Notes under the pieces: generated by a model
What the model was told of the DNA's origin: nothing
Seen by the model: only the letters and a program-made list of their open reading frames with translations
Databases searched by the model: none
Shown here: piece by piece, positions 1 through 15,402 of the stretch
Numbering within the stretch: position 1 is the first letter of the stretch
How the letters are laid out: every line of letters begins with the position of its first letter
Translations under genes and position numbers: made by a program
Source: Flavobacteriales bacterium
GTDB taxonomy: Bacteria > Bacteroidota > Bacteroidia > Flavobacteriales_G > Salibacteraceae
Assembly (NCBI GenBank): GCA_020435995.1
Contig: JAGQYO010000010.1
Coordinates: forward strand, 1-64,000
Direction of reading: 5' to 3'
Length of the DNA stretch: 64,000 nt

Positions 1-1
1 G

Positions 2-1288
2 GGGGAACTAAGATTGACCTATGCTGGGCTACTCTTGTTTGGTAGTAAAATGGCGCATCGGAGGCTGATACCAGCAGTTAGGGTAGATTACATTCGGGTT
101 CCTGGTAGCATTTGGATTGAAAACCCTGATAATCGGTTTACCACAGTTGATATGCGGGGATCGCTTCTTCTCATTTTGTCCCGAATCTATAATTCGGTTG
201 TTGATGACCTTCCAAAAGGGTTTTTATTGCCTGAAGGAGAGCTGCAAGCTGAATCCGTAGGACTTCCTGGAAGGGTTTTGCGCGAGGCTTTAGTTAATGC
301 CCTCATGCACAGATCGTATCGAGAAAATCAACCGATTCAAATCATACGTTATAGCAATCGTATTGAGATTCGCAACCCAGGGTTTTCCTTAAAATCGGAT
401 GAACATTTTGGAGATCCTGGTTCTCAACAGAGGAACCCTTTTATTGCTGCCGTTTTTCATGAAACAAATTTGGCAGAAACCAAGGGTAGTGGAATTCGTA
501 CCATGAGAAAGTTAATGGATAAGTCTGGAATGGCTCCACCTACTTTTGAGTCGGACCATTCTCAAAATACATTTACTACTCGTTTGTTATTACATCATTT
601 TTTGAGTGAATTCGATTTAGTGTGGTTACGACAGTTCGATTATTTGGGCATAAATGACAATCAAAAAAAGGCGCTTATTTTTATTCGCGAGGTAGGCGCA
701 ATTGATAACCCAACTTATCGTCAGCTAAGTGGTGAAGATGTGTTAAAAGCTAGTCAGGAACTGCGAAGTCTTAAAAATTTCGACCTGCTATTTTCTAAAG
801 GTAAAAGCAGAGCTACATATTATGTTGCTGGTGCACTATTGCAAACTGCACTAGTGCAGTTAGACGAAAGTAGCAGTTCTTCTTCTGCAAGTGCTTTTGT
901 AGGAAATATTCAAGCTGCTACTGCACCACCTAATTCACTTACTGCACCACCTCAAAATACTACTGCACCACCTCAACAAGTCGATCTTCTCGCTTCTAAT
1001 GAAAGAGCATTGTTGCTAAAAGATGCGCCAAAGGATATTTTAGCTATGCTTGATAAAATGGGGAAAAGAACCAAGGATAAAAGTTTTATAAATGGGCTAA
1101 TTGTTCGTTTGTGCAGATGGAAATTTCTGAAGGCTTCCGAAATTGCAATCATTCTTGCGAAGTCCGAAAAATGGGTACTACGAGAGTACATTACACTTCT
1201 GATTCAGGCAGGGGAATTACAATATACCATACCTGACATGAAAAATCACCCCGATCAAGCTTACATTGCTAGTGCAAAAGAAGGATGA
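2..1288 (+). CDS. AlbA_2/HATPase_c_4 ATP-binding protein (5' truncated)
   Basis: The reading frame is open to the left edge, so the true start lies outside the window and only the C-terminal part is seen. Near the start is LTYAGLLLFG, typical of the region after an AlbA_2 (divergent AAA-4, formerly Schlafen-like) domain. It is followed by the GHKL-like segment LREALVNALMHRSY and by RNPG, which mark HATPase_c_4. The C-terminal half looks like winged-helix units linked by a short Thr-Ala-Pro-Pro repeat stretch (about residues 303-324 counted from position 14). The family is RecG C-terminal-like and is often cargo in type I restriction loci. Its stop overlaps the next ATG (ATGA), so it is probably translated together with the GIY-YIG gene. 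The biological role is unknown. Confidence 0.8.
   Translation, partial: GELRLTYAGLLLFGSKMAHRRLIPAVRVDYIRVPGSIWIENPDNRFTTVDMRGSLLLILSRIYNSVVDDLPKGFLLPEGELQAESVGLPGRVLREALVNALMHRSYRENQPIQIIRYSNRIEIRNPGFSLKSDEHFGDPGSQQRNPFIAAVFHETNLAETKGSGIRTMRKLMDKSGMAPPTFESDHSQNTFTTRLLLHHFLSEFDLVWLRQFDYLGINDNQKKALIFIREVGAIDNPTYRQLSGEDVLKASQELRSLKNFDLLFSKGKSRATYYVAGALLQTALVQLDESSSSSSASAFVGNIQAATAPPNSLTAPPQNTTAPPQQVDLLASNERALLLKDAPKDILAMLDKMGKRTKDKSFINGLIVRLCRWKFLKASEIAIILAKSEKWVLREYITLLIQAGELQYTIPDMKNHPDQAYIASAKEG
920..973 (+). repeat. Three 12-base direct repeats, period 21, inside the ATPase gene
   Basis: The unit ACTGCACCACCT occurs at 920-931, 941-952 and 962-973. It encodes repeated Thr-Ala-Pro-Pro in an Asn/Gln/Pro-rich linker. 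The 21-base period keeps the frame, so copy number could change without breaking the gene. Confidence 0.85.
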
Positions 1289-1872
1289 ATATGCACAACT
1301 GGAGCGAACCCTATATCGATCAATTACAAGCACTATTGGCAAAAGCAGAAGTAACTGCTGACTCAGTAAAAGCGGTTCTAAATCAGCCGAATACACCCTA
1401 CTTATCTGAATTATACGAAACCACTATGGTTGATAACAGTTATGTGGAAGATTGTTTGTCAAACAATGAAAGCTCTACCAGCAAAACAAAAACCCTAAAG
1501 CATAAGTTCATAGAGTTAAGTTATTCACCCAATGTAAAGTCCAAATCGAGCATTAAATCACTAAATGAATTCAAAGGCTTGTATGTATTTGGTGAAGAAG
1601 TTAATGGAACTGTAGTTCCTGTTTATGTAGGAATTTCTAGGGTTATTTATCAAAGACTCAGGAACCATGGTTGGGGTAAATTGAAGAACAATTGCACCTT
1701 AGCTTATCTCATTTCCAAAGATCAAAAAATTTCACTCTGTGAAGCTAAATTGTTGGTCAGGAATTTCAAGGTATTTCTACATCCCGAAAAAGAAGATTAC
1801 GATCTTTATTTTCTAGAAGTTGCCATTGCGGGTATTCTAAAAACCAAATGGAACTCATTCAGAACGCATTGA
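1285..1872 (+). CDS. GIY-YIG-superfamily protein
   Basis: This 195-residue protein has a C-terminal GIY-YIG-like nuclease fold. Seen in order are G98-L99-Y100 (the GIY strand), VYVGIS (the YIG strand, about 113-118), an Arg in IYQRLRNH, a Glu in YFLEVAIAG and a final Asn in TKWN. That is the full set of positions expected for a metal-dependent GIY-YIG active site. The first 90 residues are unrecognised and Ser/Thr-rich at their end. The ATG overlaps the upstream stop, and the next GIY-YIG gene starts four bases after its own stop, so the three form one transcription unit. Nuclease activity is inferred from the motif alone. Confidence 0.7.
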   Translation: MNMHNWSEPYIDQLQALLAKAEVTADSVKAVLNQPNTPYLSELYETTMVDNSYVEDCLSNNESSTSKTKTLKHKFIELSYSPNVKSKSSIKSLNEFKGLYVFGEEVNGTVVPVYVGISRVIYQRLRNHGWGKLKNNCTLAYLISKDQKISLCEAKLLVRNFKVFLHPEKEDYDLYFLEVAIAGILKTKWNSFRTH

Positions 1873-1875
1873 ATA

Positions 1876-2319
1876 ATGGATGACTTGAAGAAGATAAAAT
1901 TAGAATGGAGTTATCCAAGGGAATTTAGTAGCGCCTTGTGTTGTCACCATGCCAAAAATCGAGGTTTATATCAAATTTCTCGTATTTGGGGAGGTAAAGA
2001 AACTTTGGTTTATATAGGGTTGGTGAAGGGACGAAACCGGCAGTTTCGGAATCGATTAAGAGAACATGAATATTGGCTTAGAGAGGTAAGGGGGGTGATA
2101 AAAGTTCGTTTTGGCACACTGCAAGTTCCGCCCAAAACTCGTCTTACAAATAAACTTATCGAAACCATTGAGGGAGTACTTATTTGTGAATATCAGCCTC
2201 CATATAATGTGGCTAAACGAGAAACCTTTTTGGCTCACCAAAATGTAGTAATTTATAATTGTGGCTTTCGTGGGTCGCTTAAAAAATCATTTAAGGTAGA
2301 AGATTATTATCTGGATTAG
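1876..2319 (+). CDS. GIY-YIG-superfamily protein, second copy
   Basis: This 147-residue protein is almost entirely a GIY-YIG-like domain: G30-LY, then LVYIGLV, NRLREH with the conserved Arg, a Glu in LIETIEGVL, and QPPYN with the terminal Asn. The active-site positions appear complete. It is not a close copy of the preceding protein, since only the motif residues align, so this looks like an old pairing rather than a recent duplication. It starts four bases after the previous stop. DNA or RNA cleavage is inferred from the fold; the target is unknown. Confidence 0.72.
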   Translation: MDDLKKIKLEWSYPREFSSALCCHHAKNRGLYQISRIWGGKETLVYIGLVKGRNRQFRNRLREHEYWLREVRGVIKVRFGTLQVPPKTRLTNKLIETIEGVLICEYQPPYNVAKRETFLAHQNVVIYNCGFRGSLKKSFKVEDYYLD

Positions 2320-2531
2320 CGGATTTAACTAAGCCATTGGATGTCATAATTGATTCTTTAATAGGATATAATCAGGCCTTCAATTTTTTACTTTCTTTGA
2401 GAAGTAGTCCATAAACGGCATTTCTGTGGTTCAGGATAAATTTGGTTTAATTGAAGTGCAGAACTAGTGCACACAATCGGTCAATCTTGCAACAAATTTA
2501 TGACATGAGGCAGATTAATTAAAGTTAAGAA

Positions 2532-4238
2532 ATGAGCAATCAATTTAATCATTTAGACTTAGATCCAGAAAACCTTGAGTTTAATGAGGCGGTTGATTTT
2601 GTACACAATACCAACTCTTCTTTATACCTTACTGGTAAAGCTGGAAGCGGAAAAACAACCTTCTTAAAGTACATAAAGAAAACTACCAAAAAGAATGCGG
2701 TAATTGTTGCCCCAACTGGAATTGCCGCTATTAATGCTGGGGGTCAGACGATTCATTCGTTTTTTCAAATTCCCTTTAGTCCTTTTATTCAAGGTGATCC
2801 AAGGTTGGATACCAAAACAAAGGATGCTCAGAATTACTACCAAACCTTTCAATACCGTAAGAAAAAAAGAAAGGTAATACAAGAATTAGAATTGCTCATT
2901 ATCGATGAAGTATCGATGGTTCGTTGCGATATAATTGATGTTATCGATAGAATCCTCAGGATAGAAAAAAGGCAACGGGATTTTCCATTTGGAGGTGTTC
3001 AGGTTTTGTTTATTGGCGATGCATTCCAATTGCCACCTATAATTAATGACAACCAGTGGAATATCCTTTGTGAGTTTTATGATGGTCCTTTCTTTTTTAA
3101 TTCATGGGTATTTGATGGGTATGCACCAAGCTATATAGAGCTAAAGAAAATATACCGTCAAAAGGAGCAAGGTTTTATAGATCTTCTTAACAGAGTACGG
3201 ACAAATGAAGTAACCGACAACGATATTTCAATGCTCAATGGAAGGCTCATAACCCCACCCTCTGACGACAAAGAGTTTATCACCCTTGCAACACATAATA
3301 TTCAAGTAAACCAAACGAATGCAAGAGAGTTGGAAAAGTTGCAAGGGGACATTCATGAATTCGAAGCAACTATTTCAGGAGATTTTCCTAGTAACAACTT
3401 TCCCGCTGAGCATTTTTTAAGACTCAAAGAGGGTGCTCAAATCATGTTTTTAAAAAATGATTATGCAACTCATAAGCGATATTACAATGGAAAAATTGGT
3501 GTCGTTCAAAGTTTTACGGACGACGGAATAGTGGTTTCGTGTTCGGGTGAAGATCCTATTCTTGTAGAAAAAGCCGCTTGGGAGCATATAATTTATGAAT
3601 ATGATAGGGAAGAAAAGAAAATCACGGAAAAAGTAAAAGGAACTTTTACCCAATATCCGTTAAGACTAGCATGGTCAGTTACAGTTCACAAGAGCCAGGG
3701 GCTCAGTTTTCCTAAATTAATTGCCGATGTTCAAGGTGCCTTTGTAGCTGGTCAAGTTTATGTGGCATTATCCCGATGTACTACTTTTTCAGGGCTTATT
3801 TTAAAGAGTCCGATTCACAGGAATTGTATCACATCAAACCCTATGGTAATTGAGTTTGCAAAAAAGGAAACAAATCAACACGAATTAAGCCGAATGAAAA
3901 ACGATGGTAAGGCTGATTTAAGGTATCGAAGGGCAATTAAGGAATTTAATAATGGTGAGATAAAGAAGGCCGTAACAGAAGTAATTGAGGCGATCAATCT
4001 CCGTGATGATTTGGATAGTGACATGTTTCGAAGATTTGTAAGGTATAAAATGATTAAAGGTATGAAGTTGGAAAAATTCGATGCCAATGTCAATCCTTGG
4101 GTGGAATTGGAAAAAGAAATGGAGCGAGCGCTTAACATGGTCAAACTCATTTTGAGAGAAACTGCTGAACAAAACATACCGCTTGATCGTGCAACCGAAG
4201 AATTGAATAATTTAGTTCATCTAGAATCCAAGCAATGA
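2532..4238 (+). CDS. PIF1-like ATP-dependent helicase
   Basis: This 568-residue superfamily 1B helicase has a Walker A motif at about residues 33-44 (LTGKAGSGKTT), motif Ia-like VAPTGIAA, a Walker B LLIIDEVSMV near residue 124, the GD-x-FQLPP motif III, and a C-terminal VHKSQG ... VALSR segment typical of PIF1/RecD-family helicases (UvrD_C_2). It should translocate 5' to 3' on single-stranded DNA. The last 130 residues (KADLRYRRA onward) are a helical tail of unknown role. The stop overlaps the ATG of the HsdR gene, which argues for coupled translation and a shared function in restriction or DNA processing. PIF1-like genes as cargo next to hsdR are known in Bacteroidota; a direct role here is inferred. 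Confidence 0.85.
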   Translation: MSNQFNHLDLDPENLEFNEAVDFVHNTNSSLYLTGKAGSGKTTFLKYIKKTTKKNAVIVAPTGIAAINAGGQTIHSFFQIPFSPFIQGDPRLDTKTKDAQNYYQTFQYRKKKRKVIQELELLIIDEVSMVRCDIIDVIDRILRIEKRQRDFPFGGVQVLFIGDAFQLPPIINDNQWNILCEFYDGPFFFNSWVFDGYAPSYIELKKIYRQKEQGFIDLLNRVRTNEVTDNDISMLNGRLITPPSDDKEFITLATHNIQVNQTNARELEKLQGDIHEFEATISGDFPSNNFPAEHFLRLKEGAQIMFLKNDYATHKRYYNGKIGVVQSFTDDGIVVSCSGEDPILVEKAAWEHIIYEYDREEKKITEKVKGTFTQYPLRLAWSVTVHKSQGLSFPKLIADVQGAFVAGQVYVALSRCTTFSGLILKSPIHRNCITSNPMVIEFAKKETNQHELSRMKNDGKADLRYRRAIKEFNNGEIKKAVTEVIEAINLRDDLDSDMFRRFVRYKMIKGMKLEKFDANVNPWVELEKEMERALNMVKLILRETAEQNIPLDRATEELNNLVHLESKQ

Positions 4239-7200
4239 GCAACTTTTTATTCATCGAACAATCTTGGCCCGAACTTTACCAAAAAGCGGAGCGTGCCGAA
4301 AGGCGTGTTCTTATTGAACCAGATACATCGGCTTTTACTGGTCGCTTGGCCTTGGAATGGATGGTACATAAGATTTATGAGCTTGAAAAGCTTGATTTAC
4401 CTTTTAACAAAGACTTGTTTAGCTTGTTGAGCGAGGTGGAGTTCGTTGCGATTCTTCCTGCTAACTTGAAAAGTGGGGTCCATATTATCCGAAAAACGGG
4501 AAATTCCGCAGCGCACGCAAAACATGTGTCTTCGAGAGATAGCCTAAGAAGTGTGCGGTATCTTTTTGATTTTGTTAAGTGGTTTTCCTGTGTTTACAGC
4601 TATCAAAAACTGTCATTGCCTGGCCGCTTTAACGAGGATTTAATTCCTACTGTTGAGACTGCTGCGGCTGCCATCCAGAAATCCATTGATACTCAAAAGG
4701 AGCTAGATGAGATTAGGTTTAAATACGAGCTTCTAGCTAAAGAGCGGGAAGAAGAGCTCGAAAAAGCCAAGGAGAGTGAAGAGACCTACATTGCGTATTT
4801 GAGCAATATCCAGCATCACAAGAATGCTATATCGGATCGAAAGCTGCAAAGGAATTACAAGAGTTCAAGCGAATACACCGAAAAAGAAACGCGAATTCAC
4901 CTTATTGATGCGAATTTGATTGAAGCTGGATGGAACGAACTCCGACAAGGCTATCATGTTGAATATCCAGTACAAGGAATGCCAATCTCTACAGATAATC
5001 CCAAAGGCAATGGTTATGCAGATTACGTGTTGTGGGATGACAACGGCAAACCATTGGCGGTAATAGAAGCCAAAAGAGCATCACGAAGTATAGAGGAAGG
5101 AAAACATCAAGCAAAACTTTATGCAGATTGCTTGGAGAAGATGCATGGACAGCGGCCAATAATTTTTTATTCCAATGGGTATGACACCAATATTTGGGAT
5201 GATCGGTTTTATTCAGCACCTAGACCTATTTATGGATTTCTAAAAAAAGATGAATTACAACTTCGAATTAACCAAAGAGAAAATCGAAAAAACATACTAC
5301 GCGCTACAATCGAAGAAAGTATATCTGGAAGGCATTATCAAATTGAGGCAATTAAAAGAGTAGCTGAAAGTTTGGTTACCGATGAAATAAACGGCTTTAG
5401 AGGAAAAAAGAGAGAAGCGCTTTTGGTAATGGCCACTGGCAGCGGAAAAACTAGAACTGCTGCTGGATTGGTTGATGTTTTGGTAAAGAATAATTGGGCA
5501 AAAACCGTCTTATTTCTGGCTGATAGAAACGCTCTAGTAAGACAGGCGAAATCAAGGTTTAGTGAATTTTTACCTCATTTATCTTCTATTGATCTCACCA
5601 AAGAATCTGACTCCGATTCAACCCGTTTAGTCTTTAGTACGTACCCAACAATGCTTAACCGAATCGATTTTTCAAAAGAGGGTGATTCAAGAACCTATGG
5701 TGTGGGCCATTTTGATTTAATCATAGTGGACGAGGCACATAGATCAATTTACAACCGTTATCAAGCCATATTTGATTATTTCGATGCCATAATCGTAGGG
5801 CTTACTGCAACCCCTAAGAATGCAATTGATTTTAACACCTATGAACTATTTGGTTGCCCTGATGGTGACCCTACGTTTTCTTATACTTTGGAAGAGGCAG
5901 TGCCCACTTATTTAAAACCATTCGAAAATATTTCAATTGACACTAAGTTCATCAGAGAGGGTATAAAATACGAAGAGCTTACTGCCGCGGAAAAAGTTCG
6001 ATATGAGGAGACCTTTATGGACAATTCAACGGGGTTGTTTCCAGAGCAGATTGCTTCCTCAGAGATGAACAAAACCCTTTTCAATGTGAATACGGTTCAT
6101 AAGGTGTTGGATTCCTTCATATCCAAATGCCTTAAAATTGAAGGAGGCGACAAAATTGGTCGCACCATCATATTCGCTGGCAACCAAAAACATGCAGAAT
6201 TCATTGTAAAACAATTTGAAATCAGGTATCCTGAATATCCTCCAGGGTTCATTGCGATGGTTCATAATAAGGTGTCGCATACCGAGAGCTTAATAGACGC
6301 GTTTTGTGATGAGTTTAAAGAAAACCTTCCACAAATTGTGGTATCGGTCGATATGATGGATACTGGAATTGACGCTCCAAGGGTACTCAATTTGGTCTTT
6401 TTTAAGGTTGTTCGGAGCTATTCAAAGTTTTGGCAAATGATTGGAAGAGGAACTCGGCTATGCCCAGATGTTTTTGGACCAAACCAAGCAAAAGAAAAGT
6501 TCTTGATTTTTGACGTTTGTAGAAATTTTGAGTTTTTCGAAATCGAACAAAATCAGGGTGATTCAAGGCCAAGCCAATCTTTAACCCAACGAATATTTAA
6601 TTCGAGTCTAGAATTGTCGGTTTTACTTGCAGAAACTGGTGAACTGGAAGATTTAGCACTTGCGGCAGAACTAAGAAATACCTTACATTATGCTATTTCG
6701 GGGCTTGATAGAAATAGGGTATCCGTTAAAATGAGGCTAAGGTGGGTGGATGAATTTTCTGACCGTAAGCGATGGAATAATTTGTCCAAAGACGATGTAA
6801 ACGCCATTATTTCCTATTTGTCGGATTTACCTACAGCTGCTTCCGAAGATGAAATAGCAAGGCGCTTTGATTTACTTATTTTAAAGCTTCAATTAGCTAA
6901 GTTATTGGGACTGAATGCTGAAGTGTCCATTACAAGGAATTTGGTAGAAATAGCCAATCAATTGAGTAAAAAATATACAATTCCTGATGTATTGAAGTCA
7001 AAGGAGTTAATAGACCAAATGTGTGATGTGCGGTTTTATCAGGAAATAAGCCAGCGAAAATTAGATCAAGTACGAGAAGAAATCAGGGAACTTGTTCAGT
7101 ACTTAGATAGGTCAACTCGTGAAATAGTTTACACAGATTTTGAAGATTCAGAAGTAACTATTGAAGAGGGAGGTGGATTATCTCATAGCCAGGATTTAAT

Positions 7201-7663
7201 ACCATATAAATCAAGAGTTGAAGAGATAATTAGAGCAAATAGCAACCACATTACCATATCTAAGCTTAAAACAAATCAAACATTGACAATTGATGAAATT
7301 CATGGACTTGAACAGCTGATTTACAATCCCGAATTGGGAAACAAAGAAGACTTCACGCGAGAATTTGGACCGCTACCCTTAGGGCGCTTTGTTAGAAGCA
7401 TTGTCGGCCTAACGGAGGCTGCGGCAAGGCAAGCCTTTTCTGAATTTATTAATGTACCGAATATTGACCCAAAGCAAATCACATTCATTAATACCTTGAT
7501 TCAGTCATTTACAAAAAATGGAATTATTGAACCGGCTATGTTGTTTGAACCACCTTTTACAAATTTGAATGAAAACGGTGTGATTGGCGTGTTTGACGAT
7601 GCAGATGCCCATAAAATAATAAGCATTATAAGACAGATCAACCATAATGCGGATGTAGGTTAA
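4235..7663 (+). CDS. hsdR: Type I restriction endonuclease subunit R (EcoEI-like), with DUF4145 N-terminus
   Basis: This 1142-residue motor and nuclease subunit begins with a DUF4145-like domain (about 25-115), then a charged coiled coil (about 150-200). Next is the HSDR_N nuclease domain with D263 and E278-A-K280, the PD-(D/E)XK signature. The SF2 helicase follows: Walker A MATGSGKT at 399-406, DEAH at 499-502, LTATP, and motif VI IGRGTRL. The C-terminus resembles EcoEI_R_C. All catalytic residues appear intact. The ATG overlaps the PIF1-like gene stop. No hsdM or hsdS for this subunit lies beside it; they may be left of the window. The only hsdM here (11.0 kb) is broken and separated by an attachment-like site, so this HsdR is functional only if partners exist elsewhere. 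Confidence 0.92.
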   Translation: MSNFLFIEQSWPELYQKAERAERRVLIEPDTSAFTGRLALEWMVHKIYELEKLDLPFNKDLFSLLSEVEFVAILPANLKSGVHIIRKTGNSAAHAKHVSSRDSLRSVRYLFDFVKWFSCVYSYQKLSLPGRFNEDLIPTVETAAAAIQKSIDTQKELDEIRFKYELLAKEREEELEKAKESEETYIAYLSNIQHHKNAISDRKLQRNYKSSSEYTEKETRIHLIDANLIEAGWNELRQGYHVEYPVQGMPISTDNPKGNGYADYVLWDDNGKPLAVIEAKRASRSIEEGKHQAKLYADCLEKMHGQRPIIFYSNGYDTNIWDDRFYSAPRPIYGFLKKDELQLRINQRENRKNILRATIEESISGRHYQIEAIKRVAESLVTDEINGFRGKKREALLVMATGSGKTRTAAGLVDVLVKNNWAKTVLFLADRNALVRQAKSRFSEFLPHLSSIDLTKESDSDSTRLVFSTYPTMLNRIDFSKEGDSRTYGVGHFDLIIVDEAHRSIYNRYQAIFDYFDAIIVGLTATPKNAIDFNTYELFGCPDGDPTFSYTLEEAVPTYLKPFENISIDTKFIREGIKYEELTAAEKVRYEETFMDNSTGLFPEQIASSEMNKTLFNVNTVHKVLDSFISKCLKIEGGDKIGRTIIFAGNQKHAEFIVKQFEIRYPEYPPGFIAMVHNKVSHTESLIDAFCDEFKENLPQIVVSVDMMDTGIDAPRVLNLVFFKVVRSYSKFWQMIGRGTRLCPDVFGPNQAKEKFLIFDVCRNFEFFEIEQNQGDSRPSQSLTQRIFNSSLELSVLLAETGELEDLALAAELRNTLHYAISGLDRNRVSVKMRLRWVDEFSDRKRWNNLSKDDVNAIISYLSDLPTAASEDEIARRFDLLILKLQLAKLLGLNAEVSITRNLVEIANQLSKKYTIPDVLKSKELIDQMCDVRFYQEISQRKLDQVREEIRELVQYLDRSTREIVYTDFEDSEVTIEEGGGLSHSQDLIPYKSRVEEIIRANSNHITISKLKTNQTLTIDEIHGLEQLIYNPELGNKEDFTREFGPLPLGRFVRSIVGLTEAAARQAFSEFINVPNIDPKQITFINTLIQSFTKNGIIEPAMLFEPPFTNLNENGVIGVFDDADAHKIISIIRQINHNADVG

Positions 7664-7725
7664 TTAAGTGCGGGTTGGTTGCACATTATGAAGTTTTATT
7701 TGCCATCGGAAAAAGATAAGAAGTG

Positions 7726-9372
7726 ATGAAAAAGATTGGGATTGAAAACTTTCTAGTTTTTAATGAAATGACCGAGATGGAGCTTGCCCCAATAACAGTA
7801 TTGACTGGGCCGAATAATTCGGGGAAGAGTTCTTTTACTAAGTTTTTAAGATTTATGGCGAAAGGAATTGACAATTTTTCATTTCGAGTTCCTGAATTAA
7901 ATTTAAACTCGATAAGAGAAATTAAAAATTGGGAAAATAACGCTGATGAAATAAAGATTAGGGTAGGCGGCGAAATACCATTCCTTGTAGAGGATATAGT
8001 AATTGAACTTACTTATAGAATACGTAAAGAAGAAAGCAGTAAGAAACTCGATTCACTTACTGTTTTAGCAAATAATGAAATTCTTTTCTCCGCACAGAGA
8101 AGAATTACAGTGGATTTGAATAATTCCTTTGCTGAAGAAGAATATTCTATCAACAATTTTAACATTGATTTTATTGTTGAACGCTTGGTTGGAAATGGGT
8201 TGGGTCTAAATAGAAATTATATGACCAAAGGACAGATGAACCATTTAACAGGGGTAACCATGAGAGAATTTTTCGAAAAGAGAATAGCCGAGATTACCGA
8301 AAAATTTGGTGGAGGAAGCAAGCGGCTCTTAAAAGTGCTAAATGATGAGAATAATAAAATTTCAGACGAAGAATTAGCAAAAATTGAAAAAGTCCTTTTT
8401 GATAGTAGAGCGATTTCAGAACCCTACGAAGTGGTAACTCTTCCATATTCAAATTACCTTCTTTCACTTCTAAGGAAATTTAAAGACTTTCCCTCGCAAA
8501 AAGACTCAATTTTAAGAAAAAATGGGTTTAACTTCTCTGCCGATCTAGAACTCGAATTTACGGATCTTGGAAATTTCATATTCAAAGAAGAATATGTTCC
8601 CGAATTGATTTCTTTAGTTCATCAGCTTTATGAAAATTTTTCTCATGTAGAATTTATTTCTTTGAATAGGGGAACACATCAAAATTATTTAAGACATAAT
8701 GGAGTATTTGCTGAAGTAGAAATGGAGTCTGTGATTTCGGAAATAATTAATGAAGGGTTAGCGGAGGATAATAACTTTAAAAGCTTCCTCAAAGACTCTT
8801 TTAATCTCTTGGGCTTAAATTATGAACTAAATATTATTAACTCAGAAGGTGTCGTAAACTTCGTTAAAATGACATCGGAAGACCGAGATCAAAACATTTC
8901 AAATATGGGATATGGCTTTTCCCAGCTTGTTCCAATATTGTTGAAAATAGCTATTACTGGTCTAAAAGCCAATAGATTGCGTGATTTTTGGAACCCGTCA
9001 GAAACTAACTTTCGATTGATAATTGAGGAGCCAGAGTCAAATCTCCATCCAAATTTACAATCCAAATTGGCCGATGTGTTTTTGATGGCAATTAAAACGT
9101 TTGATATAGAACTTATTCTTGAAACGCATAGCGAATACCTTATTAGAAGATTTCAATATCTAGTTGCAAAAAAGGAGTTAAAGAGAAAGGAAATTGTTAT
9201 TCATTATTTTAGTACTATGAATACTATCCAAGACCATAATGAGACTAGGGTTAAGTCTATAAAGATAAATGAGTTTGGAGGGTTGACAGACTCATTTGGA
9301 TCAGGATTTTTTGATGAAGCTACAAGGCTGAAATTTGAGCTCCTTCAATTGAATAAAGAAAGATTGAATTGA
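7726..9372 (+). CDS. OLD/DUF3696-like AAA (ABC-type) ATPase
   Basis: This ATPase of about 548 residues starts with an SMC/OLD-type head: KIGIENFLVFNEM, then Walker A GPNNSGKSS at about 28-36. Late in the protein come a signature-like MGYGFSQLVPIL, Walker B with E434-E435 (IEEPESNLHP) and the switch His in LETHSEYLI. The end (RVKSIKINEFGG) resembles DUF3696. There is no TOPRIM nuclease domain after the ATPase, so it is not a self-contained OLD or GajA nuclease. The ATG at 7726 is preferred over the GTG just before it. It overlaps the next gene (TGATG), so the two are very likely a functional pair in which this protein senses and the partner acts. A role in phage defence is inferred from domain type and location. 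Confidence 0.82.
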   Translation: MKKIGIENFLVFNEMTEMELAPITVLTGPNNSGKSSFTKFLRFMAKGIDNFSFRVPELNLNSIREIKNWENNADEIKIRVGGEIPFLVEDIVIELTYRIRKEESSKKLDSLTVLANNEILFSAQRRITVDLNNSFAEEEYSINNFNIDFIVERLVGNGLGLNRNYMTKGQMNHLTGVTMREFFEKRIAEITEKFGGGSKRLLKVLNDENNKISDEELAKIEKVLFDSRAISEPYEVVTLPYSNYLLSLLRKFKDFPSQKDSILRKNGFNFSADLELEFTDLGNFIFKEEYVPELISLVHQLYENFSHVEFISLNRGTHQNYLRHNGVFAEVEMESVISEIINEGLAEDNNFKSFLKDSFNLLGLNYELNIINSEGVVNFVKMTSEDRDQNISNMGYGFSQLVPILLKIAITGLKANRLRDFWNPSETNFRLIIEEPESNLHPNLQSKLADVFLMAIKTFDIELILETHSEYLIRRFQYLVAKKELKRKEIVIHYFSTMNTIQDHNETRVKSIKINEFGGLTDSFGSGFFDEATRLKFELLQLNKERLN

Positions 9373-10238
9373 TGGATGTTTTTGTAGATAAGCATTTTCT
9401 CAAGTTTTTAGAGAAGGTTGAAGTTGGAAGGATTGATTCTAAAGGTTGTGAAATATTATGCCTTATATTCCAGAGGTATGGTAATTTGAGCGTCTATATT
9501 GAAAAAGAGATAGATTCTAGTCAACAATTAGAGGCTTTTTGTTTAAGGATTCCCGTGTTGGCATATTATACTTCGAATACTGCGTCACCAACACCGATAG
9601 ATGAGTTCACTCCCGCGATTTTGGACTACTCTGATTTTTCTCAAACAATTTATATGGGCGCTGAGAATCAAGAAATACAGGAAATAGTAGAAGGAAAGGG
9701 AGGAATACATCTTTCTACAACTAATGTATTTAACAAACTCGAACGAATCTCGAATGATGGAACACTCTTTTTTGATCTTTCAGATGGAGTTGGTTTCCCA
9801 GGATGGCATATCTTGAATAGAGTTGCCGCTGTATCTACCAAAGGTCTTACTATCAATGACAACTACATTTGGAAGCAAGAGAATCGACCGGTATTAGAGG
9901 AATTAGTAGCCTTATTTAGAATTGAAGAAACTATAGATGCTAGATGTCGAGTACTTACACATAGTTCAAATGATACCGACGAGCAAATAATGAATCAAAT
10001 TAGAGGACATGGAGGGATGCTTGGTTCCGAACGGGTAAGGGTATTTAATAATCGCATGCTTCCCAACCATGATCGCTTACTATACGCTAGTTTTGCATTG
10101 ATAGAAAGCCCAAGTGGGTTCAAGCCAAGACCAGACATTTTTTCTAAAATTGAATCAAATTCAATATTTGATTACAAGACTTATAGAAGGTGGAATAATC
10201 ATATGTCCCGAATCCAAAGCCAAATTGGCGACCTATGA
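9372..10238 (+). CDS. Unrecognised partner of the ATPase, with a faint PLD/MIT_C-like C-terminus
   Basis: This protein of about 288 residues is not confidently recognised. It is soluble, with no signal peptide or membrane segment. Two features suggest a diverged phospholipase-D-like or MIT_C-like fold: a hydrophobic strand ending in TINDNYIW (D163), and near the C-terminus PNHDRLL (H233-D234-R235) followed by a strand and SPSGF, recalling the HDR-then-glycine pattern of that group. The second HKD motif is not seen. The ATG overlaps the TGA of the ATPase gene by one base; a TTG three bases upstream is the alternative start. Coupled translation implies a complex. It could be the effector (nuclease or NTP-binding) of a two-gene immune system. 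The family assignment is weak. Confidence 0.6.
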   Translation: MDVFVDKHFLKFLEKVEVGRIDSKGCEILCLIFQRYGNLSVYIEKEIDSSQQLEAFCLRIPVLAYYTSNTASPTPIDEFTPAILDYSDFSQTIYMGAENQEIQEIVEGKGGIHLSTTNVFNKLERISNDGTLFFDLSDGVGFPGWHILNRVAAVSTKGLTINDNYIWKQENRPVLEELVALFRIEETIDARCRVLTHSSNDTDEQIMNQIRGHGGMLGSERVRVFNNRMLPNHDRLLYASFALIESPSGFKPRPDIFSKIESNSIFDYKTYRRWNNHMSRIQSQIGDL

Positions 10239-10684
10239 AAGTCAATTCTAATGTAATTGTCTTTTCCTGACTTGAAAGAAGAACATTGGGTATCAGTCGT
10301 AAAGGAGTGAATCTCCTGCGGTTGTGCTCTAATTGATGGGTATTCAAATTCAGCTCTTGAATTTTAGGCTTCAAGTGCGCCAATTAGTTTTACTACTTTT
10401 CTAAGAACGTCGAAAGGTTTGGAGCTCTAGTCTATCGAATATGCACTCATACTTCATTTTTTAGAATAGTAAAATGAAGTAAATGTGTTTATCAAGAAGC
10501 ACTTGTGATTTACTTTCCAAACTTTTAAGAATGTAATTGAAATATTTGCTCTAATATTGAGTCGAATTTAAGCAATTCGTTCTTTGATTTAAATACAATT
10601 CATGGCAATAAAAGTGGGCATTTCGTGTGCATTGAATTTGTTGAGTTTATAAGATATTGGTTATGAGTGGATTAGAATAGTTTA
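10239..10684 (+). other. Gene-free gap before the tRNA-tail repeats
   Basis: No credible coding frame is seen in these 446 bases. The one clear structure is a perfect 11-base inverted repeat, TACTTCATTTT at 10450-10460 against 10471-10481, with a 10-base loop. It has no T-run, so it is not an obvious terminator. The stretch is AT-rich and could be the non-coding end of the island. Confidence 0.5.
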
Positions 10685-10706
10685 TTCGAGTCCCGTCCAG
10701 ACCGCA
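10685..10706 (+). repeat. tRNA 3'-end copy (probably tRNA-Asp), candidate attachment site 1
   Basis: The 22 bases match a tRNA 3' end: T-loop TTCGAGT, T-stem CCCGT, acceptor strand CCAGACC, discriminator G, then CA. A 5' T-stem partner, anticodon arm and D arm are missing upstream, so this is not a gene. A GGTCTGG acceptor with discriminator G fits Bacteroidota tRNA-Asp, from memory. Such 3'-end copies arise when an integrative element inserts into a tRNA gene. Confidence 0.7.
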
Positions 10707-10710
10707 GTTT

Positions 10711-10747
10711 AAAAAAAAGCTCCTTGATTTTTCGAGGAGCTTTTTTT
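10711..10747 (+). terminator. Rho-independent terminator after the tRNA tail
   Basis: The hairpin GCTCCTTGA / TCGAGGAGC has a TTTT loop and one G-T pair. It is flanked by eight A upstream and a long T-run downstream, and so would work in both directions. It sits five bases after tRNA-tail copy 1, where a tRNA transcript would normally end. Confidence 0.85.
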
Positions 10748-10761
10748 GTTTAAAATAACTT

Positions 10762-10827
10762 ACGGGACGAGAAGTTTATCCCGAATGAAGCAACGCTGAT
10801 ATTCGGGAAAGTCCCGTCCAGACCGCA
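10762..10827 (+). repeat. Nested inverted repeat carrying tRNA-tail copy 2 (candidate attachment site 2)
   Basis: AGTCCCGTCCAGACCGCA at 10810-10827 repeats 18 bases of copy 1, offset by 121 bases. Its GTCCCGT (10811-10817) pairs with ACGGGAC at 10762-10768. Inside that, TCCCGAAT (10779-10786) pairs with ATTCGGGA (10801-10808). This makes a two-tier cruciform-like structure, as expected of a recombinase core site or a rearranged tRNA end. Confidence 0.65.
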
Positions 10828-10862
10828 AAGCCCAAAAATCACGCGAGTGATTTGGCTTTTAG
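10826..10862 (+). terminator. Hairpin after tRNA-tail copy 2, possible terminator
   Basis: The sequence folds imperfectly as AAAGCC..AAATCAC, loop GCGA, GTGATTTGGCTTTT. It lies at the same relative place as the strong terminator after copy 1, but with bulges and only four T. Confidence 0.4.
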
Positions 10863-11031
10863 CCTCCCCCACAGGGTCCGACTCGCCGACGATGGGAGGT
10901 GAGTCAATCCCGTTTCACACAAGTCGAGCTCGCTCGAACTTGGATGTAATTCTATTTTTTCATTCATTTAGTACCAATTCTACACTTCCATTTACTTTTT
11001 GTTGGTTTACACTTGGGAGAAATCTCTCAAC

Positions 11032-12611
11032 ATGCCGAAAGCAGATATAAATTTCGAGAAAGAACTTTGGGACGCGGCCAACTAACTCCGTGGCGCAGTA
11101 TCAGAAAATAACTACAAAAACTATATTCTCCCGCTGGTGTTTCTTAAGCACATGAGCGAACGTTACGAAATAGTGCACGATGAATTGGCCGGCATGCTTT
11201 GGGACCCAAAATCGGATCGATATACACCGACCAGGATGAGATTAATTATGTGCTTGAAGACCGGGACGAATGCACGGCCAAAAACACTTTTGTAATTCCA
11301 AAAACGGCTACTTGGCAGTATTTAAAAGACAATGCCGAACAGGACGACATAAAAGTAAGAGAGGATGATGCCTTCGATCAAATCCAAGATTTACTCACCG
11401 ATTACAATCGTCAGCTTAGTAATATCCTGCCCCGAATTTTTGTAAAAAGCGAACTCTCGGCCAAACAAACAGGTGGAATTATCAATTTACTGTCGCACCC
11501 CAAATTTTCGGAAAAGGAAAATCCTGAAAGTGATATACTAGGTGGAATCTACGAATACTACATTGGCCGATTTGCAATGGCCGAAGGTTCAGGTGCAGGG
11601 CAATTTTTTACGCCTGGTTCTATAGTGCGCTTGTTGGTGGAATTGCTCGAACCCTACAAAGGAAGAATATTTGACCCAGCTTGCGGAAGTGGTGGCATGT
11701 TTGTGCAAAGCATGCGTTTTATCAATGAGCATGGTGGCAATAAATCTGACATCTCCATCTATAGGTAGGAAATGTCAGCGCAAGCCCTTCGACTGTGTTT
11801 GATGAACCTCATGCTGCGTAACCTCAGTTTCGACGTAAGGCTGGGCAACTCCTTGCTGGATGACAAATTCCCAAAACTCAAGGCAGATTTTGTAATCGCC
11901 AATCCTCCTTTTAATGTGAGCTCTTGGCATCCTGAAGATTTGCCCGAAGGCGATCCACGTTTGTTTGGACCTCGTGAGGAATTTACCACCGACGGCAGCG
12001 CAAACTATATGTGGATGCAAACCTTTTGGCATCATCTCAGAGACATTGGCATTGCGGGAATCGTAATGGCCAATGGGGCCATGACCTCAAATAGTAAAGG
12101 CGAAAAAAACGTACGCCAGCACATGGTGGACAATAGCATGATCGATTGTATTGTGCGCTTGCCCGATAAACTTTTCTTGACCACAGGCATACCTGCTTGT
12201 TTGTTTATTCTGAGTAAAAACCGAGATGGTAAGGATGGTCAACATCGTAAACGCAACAACGAAGTTTTGTTTATCGACGCGTCCAAAATGGGGGAGATGG
12301 CCAGTCGGAAACTGCGTGTGTTTAAGGATGACGATATTTCCAAAATTGCAGCGGTTTACCACAACTGGCGAAACGCTTCGGGCAACTACGAGGATGTGGA
12401 TGGTTTTGTAAAATCAGCCACTATTGAAGAAATTCAAAAACAAGATTACAAACTCACGCCAGGTATTTATGTGGGTACCGAAGTTGAGGAAGATGATGGA
12501 ATTCCTTTCGAAGAAAAAATGGCCGAGCTAAAAGCGACGTTGTTGGAGCAGTTTAAAAAGAGTAGCGAATTGCAAAAAGAGATAGAAAAGAATTTTGATC
12601 GAATTGAATGA
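11032..12611 (+). pseudogene. hsdM: Type I restriction DNA methyltransferase subunit M, disrupted
   Basis: An HsdM-like protein can be read from ATG 11032 only by crossing three lesions. First, after 17 codons (MPKADINFEK...) an in-frame TAA at 11083-11085 sits where family members usually have Lys or Glu. Second, near 11210 the frame slips, so LPLVFLKHMSERYE continues in another frame as YTDQDEINYVLEDRDE. Third, an in-frame TAG at 11766-11768 sits between ISIY and EMSAQALRL, where GQE is expected. Between the lesions all landmarks survive: GQFFTPGSIV, the SAM motif DPACGSGGM and the catalytic NPPF. The good preservation says inactivation is recent, or that the lesions are assembly errors. 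It lies next to the AbiE pair and an hsdS fragment; no matching hsdR is visible. Confidence 0.85.
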
Positions 12612-12613
12612 CG

Positions 12614-12649
12614 TGTTCATTATATTTGCATGTACATAAATTATGAACA
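12614..12649 (+). promoter_or_regulatory. Promoter and probable operator of the AbiE pair
   Basis: TATATTTG at 12621-12628 matches the Bacteroidota -7 box TAnnTTTG. It lies between the arms of a perfect 7-base inverted repeat, TGTTCAT (12614-12620) and ATGAACA (12643-12649), with palindromic ATGTACAT at 12630-12637. AbiEi antitoxins repress their own promoter through inverted repeats, so this is the likely site. Confidence 0.55.
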
Positions 12650-13668
12650 AAATAAAAAAAATGAACAATCAATTACTTGTAAACGAGTTTGAAGCAACTA
12701 TGAAGGCGAGTCTCCAAAGACAAAATCTAAACATTAAACTTGGAGAAATACGGATGCAAGAAAATAATTTTGACGCCAGCATAGAAATAAACGGACATAA
12801 AGTACTAGTTGAAATAAAACGAGCCGTGGATCCTTTGATGGCTAATCAAATTATTCATCAAAGTCATCAAATTACCAATGGCCTTCCGAGTTTACTTTTT
12901 GCTTCATACATTACCCCAAAAGCCAAATCAATGCTTGTAGAAGCAGGTATTAATTACTTGGATGGCGGCGGCAATTTGTATTTGAAATTACCCCAACTAA
13001 GTGTGCGAGACGAAGGCCATAAAGTAGCGCCACATACGGCTCAATATCGCAATAGGGCCTTTGCAAAAACTGGTGCGGCAGTCGTGTTTCAATTGTTAAT
13101 GGATTCCAATGCCATTAACGATACACAAAGATCGTTGGCCAAAAAGGCCAAAGTTTCTCTAGGCTCAGTTCCATTGATATTGGAAGAATTAACTCAAGCG
13201 GGATTTGTAATTCAACTAGACAGACATACCAAAAAACTCAATAACCAAGAAAAATTACTGCTCAAATGGGCAGATTCGGTTTACGAAAAAATATTGCCAA
13301 GCCATCTCGTAGGTCGATTTGTGTGTGTTGGTAAAACTGCATTAGAACTTCTGAGAGAAAATCCATTTGACACATCTACCCAATGGGGTGGGGAACCCGC
13401 CGCCGCATTGTTAACCCATTATTTGAGGCCTCAAGAATTTACCCTGTACACTGAGTTCCATCCAAAGGCTCTAGCCAGAAAGTATAAACTTGTACCAAGC
13501 GATAAAGGTGAGATAGCTGTTTACCAAAAATTTTGGAACCACATGGACGGCAAAAACACCTATGTACATCCTACTTTGATTTATGCCCAATTGATAACTT
13601 CTGGTGACGATCGAAACATAGATACCGCTAAAATTATTCTCGATGAATACATCCGACCAAACTTATAA
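12643..13668 (+). CDS. Type IV toxin-antitoxin antitoxin, AbiEi family
   Basis: This protein of about 341 residues has a helix-turn-helix in its middle (QRSLAKKAKVSLGSVPLILEE) and a C-terminal region typical of long AbiEi antitoxins. The N-terminal 100 residues look like a restriction-endonuclease-like fold (VLVEIKR, LLFASYITPKAK). AbiEi proteins repress their own operon and neutralise the AbiEii nucleotidyltransferase without binding it. The gene overlaps the toxin gene by 26 bases, the expected arrangement. The ATG at 12643 is only 15 bases from the -7 box and lies inside the operator arm; ATG 12661 (MNNQLLV) is an equally good start. Confidence 0.82.
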   Translation: MNKIKKMNNQLLVNEFEATMKASLQRQNLNIKLGEIRMQENNFDASIEINGHKVLVEIKRAVDPLMANQIIHQSHQITNGLPSLLFASYITPKAKSMLVEAGINYLDGGGNLYLKLPQLSVRDEGHKVAPHTAQYRNRAFAKTGAAVVFQLLMDSNAINDTQRSLAKKAKVSLGSVPLILEELTQAGFVIQLDRHTKKLNNQEKLLLKWADSVYEKILPSHLVGRFVCVGKTALELLRENPFDTSTQWGGEPAAALLTHYLRPQEFTLYTEFHPKALARKYKLVPSDKGEIAVYQKFWNHMDGKNTYVHPTLIYAQLITSGDDRNIDTAKIILDEYIRPNL

Positions 13669-14488
13669 AGCCTACTCATTTGCCGATCACAAAGAAGTGT
13701 ATCTTTTATTAGAAAAGGTATTTACGCAATTCGACATTTTCTACTACCTCATTGGGGCGAATGCCCGAGATGTAAGTTTATATAAAGCAGGAATAAAACC
13801 GAGTAGGGGAACCGCCGATATCGACTTTGCGGTAATGGTTCCTGACATGATAAACTACATAGACCTTAAATCTCAATTAAAAGCTCAAGGGTTCATAGAA
13901 CCAAATCAGGATCAACCATACAGGCTGTTTTATAGCCGTACAAACACGGTAATCGATTTACTTCCGTTTGGAGAAATTGAAGAAAAAAACACCGTCTCAT
14001 TTAGCGATAGACAAATCGAGATTTCTACAGTAGGGTTTAAACAAATGGTAAGCGAAGTGGAACCGTTTGAACATCCCGAAGGTTTTTCAATTCCGGTATT
14101 GCCAGCACATGGCATTGTCTTGCTCAAGTTGATTTCGTGGGGCGAAAAACCGGAATGGGGCAAAGATTTATTAGACATAAAGGAACTGTTGGAATCCGCT
14201 TGGGAACTATATGAACCCGAACTATACCAAGAAAACGCCAAGCACGCCGATGTATTTGGGACAGATAATTTTAAAATGCCTTTAGTTGCTGCTCGTATAA
14301 TGGGAAGGAAAATGAAGTCAGTTTTGAACCAAGATCAAAAATTAAAAACACTCATTTTAAAACAATTGGGTGACGAATTATCGCATGATGTGGGGCCGAT
14401 GGTGGCAAATATGGCTGCCGCTTCTAGAAACACAGTAATGGAAATAAAAGAAATATTTTCGGCTTTAGTTCAAGGAATAAACGATTGA
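13643..14488 (+). CDS. Type IV toxin-antitoxin toxin, AbiEii/AbiGii nucleotidyltransferase
   Basis: This 281-residue protein of the DNA polymerase beta-like nucleotidyltransferase superfamily has a Gly/Ser-then-DxD pattern in SRGTADIDFAV near residues 54-64, a third acidic residue in TVIDLLPFG, and a conserved LLKLISWGEKPEWGKDLLDI segment, all typical of AbiEii toxins. AbiEii enzymes stop growth by nucleotide transfer; tRNA is a known target in related members. Its start lies within the antitoxin gene, so expression is coupled. The reading frame is undamaged, unlike the surrounding restriction genes, which suggests the pair is still selected. Confidence 0.82.
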   Translation: MNTSDQTYKAYSFADHKEVYLLLEKVFTQFDIFYYLIGANARDVSLYKAGIKPSRGTADIDFAVMVPDMINYIDLKSQLKAQGFIEPNQDQPYRLFYSRTNTVIDLLPFGEIEEKNTVSFSDRQIEISTVGFKQMVSEVEPFEHPEGFSIPVLPAHGIVLLKLISWGEKPEWGKDLLDIKELLESAWELYEPELYQENAKHADVFGTDNFKMPLVAARIMGRKMKSVLNQDQKLKTLILKQLGDELSHDVGPMVANMAAASRNTVMEIKEIFSALVQGIND

Positions 14489-14796: not shown

Positions 14797-15402
14797 ATGA
14801 GCGAAAATTTTAGAAATAAATACAAAGGAACCACCGCCAGATTACAAACCTGGGATTATACATGGGATGGGTCTTATTTCATTACCATTTGCACGGCAGA
14901 TCGGGCCCATTTGTTTGGAGAAATAGAAAACCAAAAAATGCAATTATCGCGATTGGGTGTAATCGCTGATATTTTGTGGAACGAATTACCACATCGCAAT
15001 CCAAATATAAAATTGGGCGAATTTGTGGTAATGCCAAACCACATTCACGGAATTTTGATATTGAATAATACAAGCGAACCGTTAAACCCGTCAACCACAA
15101 CCCCAATTGAACCCACTACAACCAATCCCAAAAACCAAAAAATGGCCATCATTTCGCCCAAACCCAATTCAATTTCAACCATTATACGATCGTATAAATC
15201 TGCCGTAACCAAACACGCCTACCGATTGGAAATAGAAAATGGGTGGCAACCTCGGTTTTACGAACATATTATTCGTAATGATGCGGCATTTAAACGCATA
15301 TCGAGTTATATCATAAACAACCCCTTGCAATGGGATAAGGACAAATTCGCAGGAAAAAATAATGAATCAATCAACCACCAACCAATCGACCAACCACAAT
15401 GA
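14797..15402 (+). CDS. REP-associated tyrosine transposase (RAYT, IS200/Y1 HUH family)
   Basis: This 201-residue protein is a Y1 transposase-like HUH enzyme. It has the opening typical of RAYTs (YTWDGSYFITICTADRAHLFG), the metal-binding HxH in VVMPNHIHGIL and a later SYKSAVTKHAY helix. RAYTs cut and rejoin single-stranded DNA at REP hairpins and are usually single-copy domesticated genes rather than mobile insertion sequences. A REP-like hairpin lies 116 bases upstream and a perfect palindrome 69 bases downstream. Such genes are frequent inside type I restriction loci of Bacteroidota. The C-terminal tail (ESINHQPIDQPQ) is low complexity. Confidence 0.88.
   Translation: MSENFRNKYKGTTARLQTWDYTWDGSYFITICTADRAHLFGEIENQKMQLSRLGVIADILWNELPHRNPNIKLGEFVVMPNHIHGILILNNTSEPLNPSTTTPIEPTTTNPKNQKMAIISPKPNSISTIIRSYKSAVTKHAYRLEIENGWQPRFYEHIIRNDAAFKRISSYIINNPLQWDKDKFAGKNNESINHQPIDQPQ

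Follow-up and report, generated by a model that had tools for sequence, protein, structure and literature searches.

Tyrosine integrases use the 3' ends of tRNA genes as attachment sites and leave copies of these ends behind. Copies of a tRNA 3' end are also a feature of the tyrT repeats (rtT RNA) of Escherichia coli, which stand in tandem 3' of a tRNA gene, each with one such copy, and which are known from one locus in enterobacteria, with a unit of about 178 bp. To our knowledge, the tyrT repeats are the closest known form to the repeats described here, which we call tail repeats. Like the tyrT repeats, tail repeats are tandem, lie behind tRNA genes, and carry 3'-end copies; unlike them, they have a unit of about 60 to 120 bp with a conserved hairpin core, occur at many isotypes as well as at tmRNA genes, and have arms that match the target tRNA. 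Small mobile repeats of the REP/RAYT and MITE-like kinds are likewise short, palindromic, noncoding, patchy, and multicopy, whereas the tail repeat is bound to tRNA and tmRNA 3' ends and has a target-specific tail copy. A further comparison is offered by SegB of phages T4 and T6, a free-standing GIY-YIG homing enzyme at tRNA genes that drives tandem amplification (PMC13096335).

The locus studied here, positions 10685 to 10827, lies in a 64,000-nucleotide stretch of DNA, the window, that forms the left end of contig C11 of a Flavobacteriales genome (3.76 Mb, 207 contigs). We consider it likely that a tRNA-Asp locus with a tail repeat formerly stood here, of which these positions represent the downstream edge from the T-loop on, and that an island was later inserted in the first of its two tRNA tails, copy 1.

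Two tRNA-Asp tails in the window

The initial annotation had described two tRNA 3'-end copies 121 bases apart, the first comprising 22 bases of a probable tRNA-Asp tail plus a terminator, the second sharing 18 bases with it, and neither having the rest of a tRNA. Both were found by exact match on the plus strand: copy 1, TTCGAGTCCCGTCCAGACCGCA, at 10685 to 10706 and copy 2, AGTCCCGTCCAGACCGCA, at 10810 to 10827, with a start-to-start spacing of 121 for the 18 nt common to the two. For the 17-mer with up to three mismatches allowed, 0.01 occurrences were expected by chance in the window. The tail is present three times genome-wide, namely, as copies 1 and 2 and, with a single mismatch, in the sole tRNA-Asp(gtc) gene detected, which is intact and lies on a contig other than that of the window (G000:C136:32952-33026). 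A different 3' end in this gene had been named in advance as a finding that would speak against an island boundary; the first 21 nt of copy 1 are identical to it, from the T-loop to the 3' end. Copy 2 starts at position 58/59 of the tRNA and extends slightly beyond its 3' end, and both copies are tRNA-Asp 3' ends in the same orientation. An intrinsic-terminator-like hairpin with a T-run follows copy 1 at 10712 to 10747 on the plus strand, as the trailer of the tail repeat, and a second terminator-like hairpin, probably native downstream sequence, follows copy 2 at about 10830 to 10857, also on the plus strand.

ARAGORN detected no tRNA gene in the window. An Rfam search of the window at the gathering score returned no family, that is, no match to a known family, including E. 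coli tyrT/rtT, and a lax cut-off gave chance matches only, which were driven by the terminators. The description of the two copies was thus borne out, with the nuance that the 45 nt to the left of copy 1 align weakly to nt 4 to 27 of tRNA-Asp, a score equaled by 0.7% of the 45-nt stretches of the window; the Rfam tRNA models had no match in these 45 nt. This likeness is a better fit to a decayed gene than to an attR, and it bears on the reading of copy 1 as the 3'-terminal remnant of a second tRNA-Asp gene, with the anticodon arm lost and the 5' half eroded, in which case the tail repeat would follow it directly and no island would end here. Several relatives do have two tRNA-Asp genes. We nevertheless find a decayed gene rather unlikely, though a serious alternative, given that the identity starts abruptly at the T-loop and is perfect over 21 nt, in contrast to a 5' half that can hardly be made out, that neither the tRNA models nor ARAGORN matched, and that the intact tRNA has an integrase at the corresponding point.

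Copy 1 as the probable edge of an island

An intact tRNA-Asp gene with an adjacent integrase, which the initial annotation had suggested should be sought in the full genome, was present on C136. There, an integrase open reading frame (ORF) starts about 240 bp downstream of the tRNA-Asp gene and is truncated by the contig end; it contains Arm-DNA-bind_5 and Phage_int_SAM_5 domains, and its match to Phage_integrase falls just under the cut-off. The G+C content of C136 is 0.355 after the tRNA versus 0.402 before it, and that of C11 is 0.371 in the part to the left of copy 1 compared with 0.397 past 16 kb; on both contigs, the lower value is on the island side of the core. The proposed right-hand part of the integrated block covers positions 1 to 10684, its left end being the contig end, and ORF, Pfam, and PADLOC analyses assign to it a HATPase_c_4/RecG-C-like protein, a PIF1 helicase, a type I HsdR of the EcoEI class, and an AAA_15 ATPase with a 289-amino-acid partner. 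Two neighboring ORFs in this block (1285 to 2319) look like GIY-YIG genes by eye and have no Pfam hit.

Taken on their sequences, C136 and copy 1 show a pattern that fits the attL and attR of an integrative defense island, with copy 1 most likely the attR core. Copy 1 is thus the probable mark of a defense-gene block inserted into the tRNA-Asp gene, and C136 and C11 would carry the two ends of one island. The 21-nt identity, the integrase beside the intact tRNA, and the foreign-looking cargo are shared with elements that attach at tRNA 3' ends by means of Bacteroidota Arm-type tyrosine recombinases, and in one relative (L184, G019) an apparent Arm-type integrase starts directly 3' of the tRNA-Asp gene. 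The ends of C11 and C136 do not overlap, their longest exact match being 7 nt. Among 40 relatives, most of which have tRNA-Asp, no syntenic empty site was found; a 130-amino-acid downstream ORF used as a probe for such a site was absent from all relatives searched, and for the AsmA-like protein encoded upstream of the C136 tRNA-Asp, all homologues found were diverged and lay in different surroundings. The regions around tRNA-Asp of five relatives contained no tail copies beyond the tRNA itself. The proposal that the restriction/ATPase block entered by integration is supported for the boundary at copy 1 by the 21-nt tail, the C136 integrase, and the G+C content; it is not supported where copy 2 was taken as an attachment site as well.

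Copy 2 as part of a hairpin repeat unit

Between the two copies, the terminator at 10712 to 10747 is followed by a two-helix hairpin, ACGGGAC GAGAAGTTTATCCCGAAT...ATTCGGG AA AGTCCCGT. Its right arm coincides with the beginning of copy 2, and its fold has a z score of -3.45. The left arm, ACGGGAC (10762 to 10768, plus strand), is the complement of GTCCCGT in copy 2, which is also found in copy 1, and the two arms pair over 7 bp. Next to the left arm lies the conserved core of the tail repeat, GAGAAGTTTATCCCGA (10769 to 10784, plus strand), and the whole hairpin unit with this core spans 10762 to 10827. A covariance model of the repeat, R1, recognizes the unit at 10761 to 10819 on the plus strand (43.9 bits; E value, 7.2e-11). 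Its core is 63 nt from the tail end, inside the range usual for first units. The same core occurs elsewhere in the source genome 3' of a tRNA-Leu (C143) and a tRNA-Met (C110), and C150 has two mismatched cores near its beginning, the tail after one of which resembles tRNA-fMet. An arrangement equal to that of the window is present at tRNA-Asp in other genomes (L182, L278, and L322). In the window, the unit is not directly 3' of an intact matching tRNA, only the tail of copy 1 being there; under the island explanation, the tRNA-Asp is missing because the island moved it, and it sits on C136.

To the right of copy 2, the adjoining hsdM gene (11031 to 12611) is broken, with an early stop near 11085 and an ORF split into 11199 to 11768 and 11772 to 12611. 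Beyond it lie an AbiEi/AbiEii-like type IV toxin-antitoxin pair (12643 to 14488) and, by eye, a RAYT-like REP-associated transposase (14797 to 15402; no Pfam match at 1e-3).

Copy 2 had been attributed to an older insertion or a tandem attachment site. In the fullest form of this reading, two integrase elements entered tRNA-Asp in succession or in tandem, and copy 2 is the older attR, the 121 bp being a remnant. The common orientation of the two tRNA-Asp tails and the presence of the broken hsdM and other accessory genes right of copy 2 agree with this, but a model derived from the units of other tRNAs recognizes the interval, with 43.9 bits, as a hairpin unit, and such units lie directly behind intact tRNAs of many isotypes. 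Two attachment sites are therefore very improbable. Integrase elements leave copy 2 unexplained, whereas tail repeats need no integrase and are located about 10 to 80 nt from the tRNA in other genomes. Judged by its sequence and its relatives, copy 2 is part of a hairpin repeat family and no att site, and the earlier attribution is set aside.

Tail repeats across Bacteroidota

When GTDB genomes were scanned for the exact core, at least 117 loci were identified, with 152 core hits among the matches listed. Among these listed hits, 119 follow a tRNA of the same strand within 600 nt, and twelve or more isotypes are represented; 16 are at the starts of loci or contigs, 3 are otherwise near a tRNA, and most of the others lie in coding sequences from outside Bacteroidota that lack the hairpin, a few orphan units making up the remainder. 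First units, defined as those at most 100 nt from a tRNA (n = 91; 12 isotypes), have the entire tRNA tail, beginning at position 59 and reaching the 3' end, in 57 of the 91 cases among the matches listed, and the tail lies directly 3' of TCGGGA or GAGGGA. Tandem arrays of two or three units are common, with up to five tail copies behind one tRNA-Asn (L319), and tail repeats with a tmRNA tail are found 3' of the tmRNA gene (L321/L340, G098). When the class was sampled evenly, the exact core was present in 18 of 396 genomes, compared with 0 for a reversed-pattern control; these cores were again 3' of tRNAs, and most of the tails begin at nt 58/59. The covariance model, built from 33 units, found units in 25 of 148 genomes. 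A tRNA lies just upstream at 24 of its best 30 loci, many with variant cores not in the model, one further locus of the best 30 is the tRNA-Leu unit of the source genome itself, which lies where a contig ends, and one more is the tmRNA locus (L321/L340). Tail repeats are a Bacteroidota-wide family in which the core, GAGAAGTTTATCCCGA...TCGGGA, is fixed and the outer arms match the target. Neither Rfam nor the literature searched yielded an earlier account of the tail repeat.

Among IMG/VR viral contigs, the core 17-mer occurs 14 times, and none of the 14 occurrences is near a tRNA; a viral origin of the repeat was rejected on this ground. In Muricauda/Flagellimonas, tail repeats lie between tRNA-Ile and tRNA-Ala (L061 and L079), probably in the 16S-23S spacer. 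Cultured species that carry units include Flavobacterium micromati, at tRNA-Thr, and Gillisia limnaea, at tRNA-Ile. Units separated from their tRNA by cargo exist outside the window as well: in G162 (L337, 17900 to 20000), a 1.9-kb stretch in which no integrase was seen separates tRNA-Leu from its tail repeat, leaving an orphan unit, and contains two ORFs, which by our reading encode an ImmA/IrrE-like regulator and a toxin of the PIN-like kind.

Pairing of the outer arms with the target tRNA

The left arm forms 5.68 of 8 possible Watson-Crick pairs with the tail of its own tRNA, compared with 4.18 ± 0.12 for shuffled tRNAs; with one unit per tail sequence, the values are 5.61 and 4.18 ± 0.16. 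On the alignment, the outer helix has changes on both sides in 6 of 8 pairs, and cells with double changes number 54 versus 23.8 ± 5.6, a count reached in 0 of 500 shuffles; slid structures were worse. This covariation of left arm and tail means that the outer helix is kept or rebuilt for each target. Of the informative positions, 6 fit a left arm copied from the 5' strand of the T-stem and 9 fit one complementary to the 3' strand, so that neither reading is clearly favored. The trailer is common to both sides in 30 of 67 units, and some arrays could therefore be plain tandem duplications.

The strong fold (z score of the window unit, given above), the covarying arms, the fixed core, and the nearly constant placement on the strand of the tRNA would also be expected if the unit were an RNA device of the host, a selected 3'-trailer hairpin that steers tRNA processing or termination and in which the tail copy acts as a decoy. 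Such a role appears unlikely, as the distribution is patchy (the 25 of 148 genomes noted above), different tRNAs are affected in each species, and one to five copies stand in tandem. A mobile appearance is also given by the genome G016, where the same unit lies 3' of two different tRNA-Leu genes and one of the tail copies is that of the other tRNA; the unit therefore probably moved as a block. The insertion site 3' of the G016 tRNA-Leu is not syntenic in congeners.

GIY-YIG genes and the spread of the units

We infer that the units move or amplify as DNA. Small GIY-YIG genes of the order are of interest in this context: 22 of the first 30 loci listed adjoin a tRNA, and most of these tRNA-adjacent genes are bounded on the far side by a partial tRNA copy, which is a 3' tail where it follows the gene (Asp, Leu, Phe, Val, Met, and Pro) and a 5' fragment where it precedes the gene (Arg, Pro, and Val). 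GIY-YIG genes and hairpin units are mixed in single arrays at tRNA-Asp (L175, G001) and tRNA-Asn (L067). As with SegB, the GIY-YIG genes are beside tRNA genes and amplification is in tandem (PMC13096335), and the bacterial relatives seen here are flanked by partial tRNA copies; unlike in the SegB system, the window unit is noncoding and its link to GIY-YIG enzymes is putative. No GIY-YIG gene is present within the window unit, there being no ORF between copies 1 and 2, and none was recognizable in the reading frames of 10201 to 10720.

At seven loci (L228, L230, L231, L234, L240, L247, and L250), the GIY-YIG gene is preceded by the exact first 21 to 28 nt of, in most cases, the tRNA that follows. 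These 5'-fragment loci mirror the 3'-tail arrangement, and one of them (L234) is in the source genome (tRNA-Pro, C159). Upstream of a tRNA-Leu of G016 (L280), there are repeated 5' fragments of tRNA-Leu with a palindrome, CCCCGATAGTTATCGGGG, inserted in the D-loop.

These arrangements, the mixed arrays, and the precedent of SegB-driven tandem amplification are what would be seen if small GIY-YIG endonucleases cut tRNA genes and repair copied in a unit, which would make the tRNA whole again with a partial copy left behind, the hairpin units being short, nonautonomous derivatives. Among the matches listed, however, a GIY-YIG gene is near only 4 of 117 hairpin-unit loci, which also disposes of the idea that every unit contains one, and the copies start at different points, about nt 51 for the GIY-YIG loci versus 58/59 for the hairpin units. 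Homing of this kind has a modest chance of being the explanation, and GIY-YIG enzymes are a reasonable guess as the candidate driver of the units. With similar reserve, we put forward that tail repeats may be a new class of mobile mini-element whose target is the T-loop of tRNA and tmRNA genes, throughout Bacteroidota and in some Neomarinimicrobiota and Patescibacteria assemblies. Such an element would restore the interrupted gene through the tail duplicate, adapt its outer hairpin arms to each target tRNA, and multiply in tandem, with small tRNA-invading GIY-YIG endonucleases moving it in trans.

Proposed history of the locus and implications

For the window, we favor a former tRNA-Asp locus with a tail repeat and a later island. 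A tail-repeat unit would settle behind a tRNA or tmRNA gene, leaving a copy of the stretch from the T-loop to the 3' end, and units could also duplicate in tandem. The original locus would have consisted of tRNA-Asp, a terminator, one tail repeat with the second tail (copy 2), and a second terminator; before the island, tRNA-Asp would have run directly into CAGTTTAAAAAAAAGCTCC, followed by the hairpin and then copy 2. A tyrosine-integrase element would later have recombined in the 21-bp tail, making copy 1 the attR, with the putative attP junction of the island being GGATTAGAATAGTTTA-TTCGAGTCCCGTCCAGACCGC-TTATTAGC. Displaced by the island, the tRNA body would now be on C136 with attL and the integrase, and the tail repeat would have been left orphaned beside the defense-gene block at the right end of the island. 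The order of events, tail repeat first and island later, is the one that we infer.

Tail duplicates behind tRNA genes are usually taken as integrase scars, and many of those in Bacteroidota are hairpin-repeat units; island calling based on tRNA fragments will therefore misplace borders. The family also constitutes a testable system, in which noncoding repeats with arms that track the host tRNA are found beside GIY-YIG genes with partial copies of either tRNA end.
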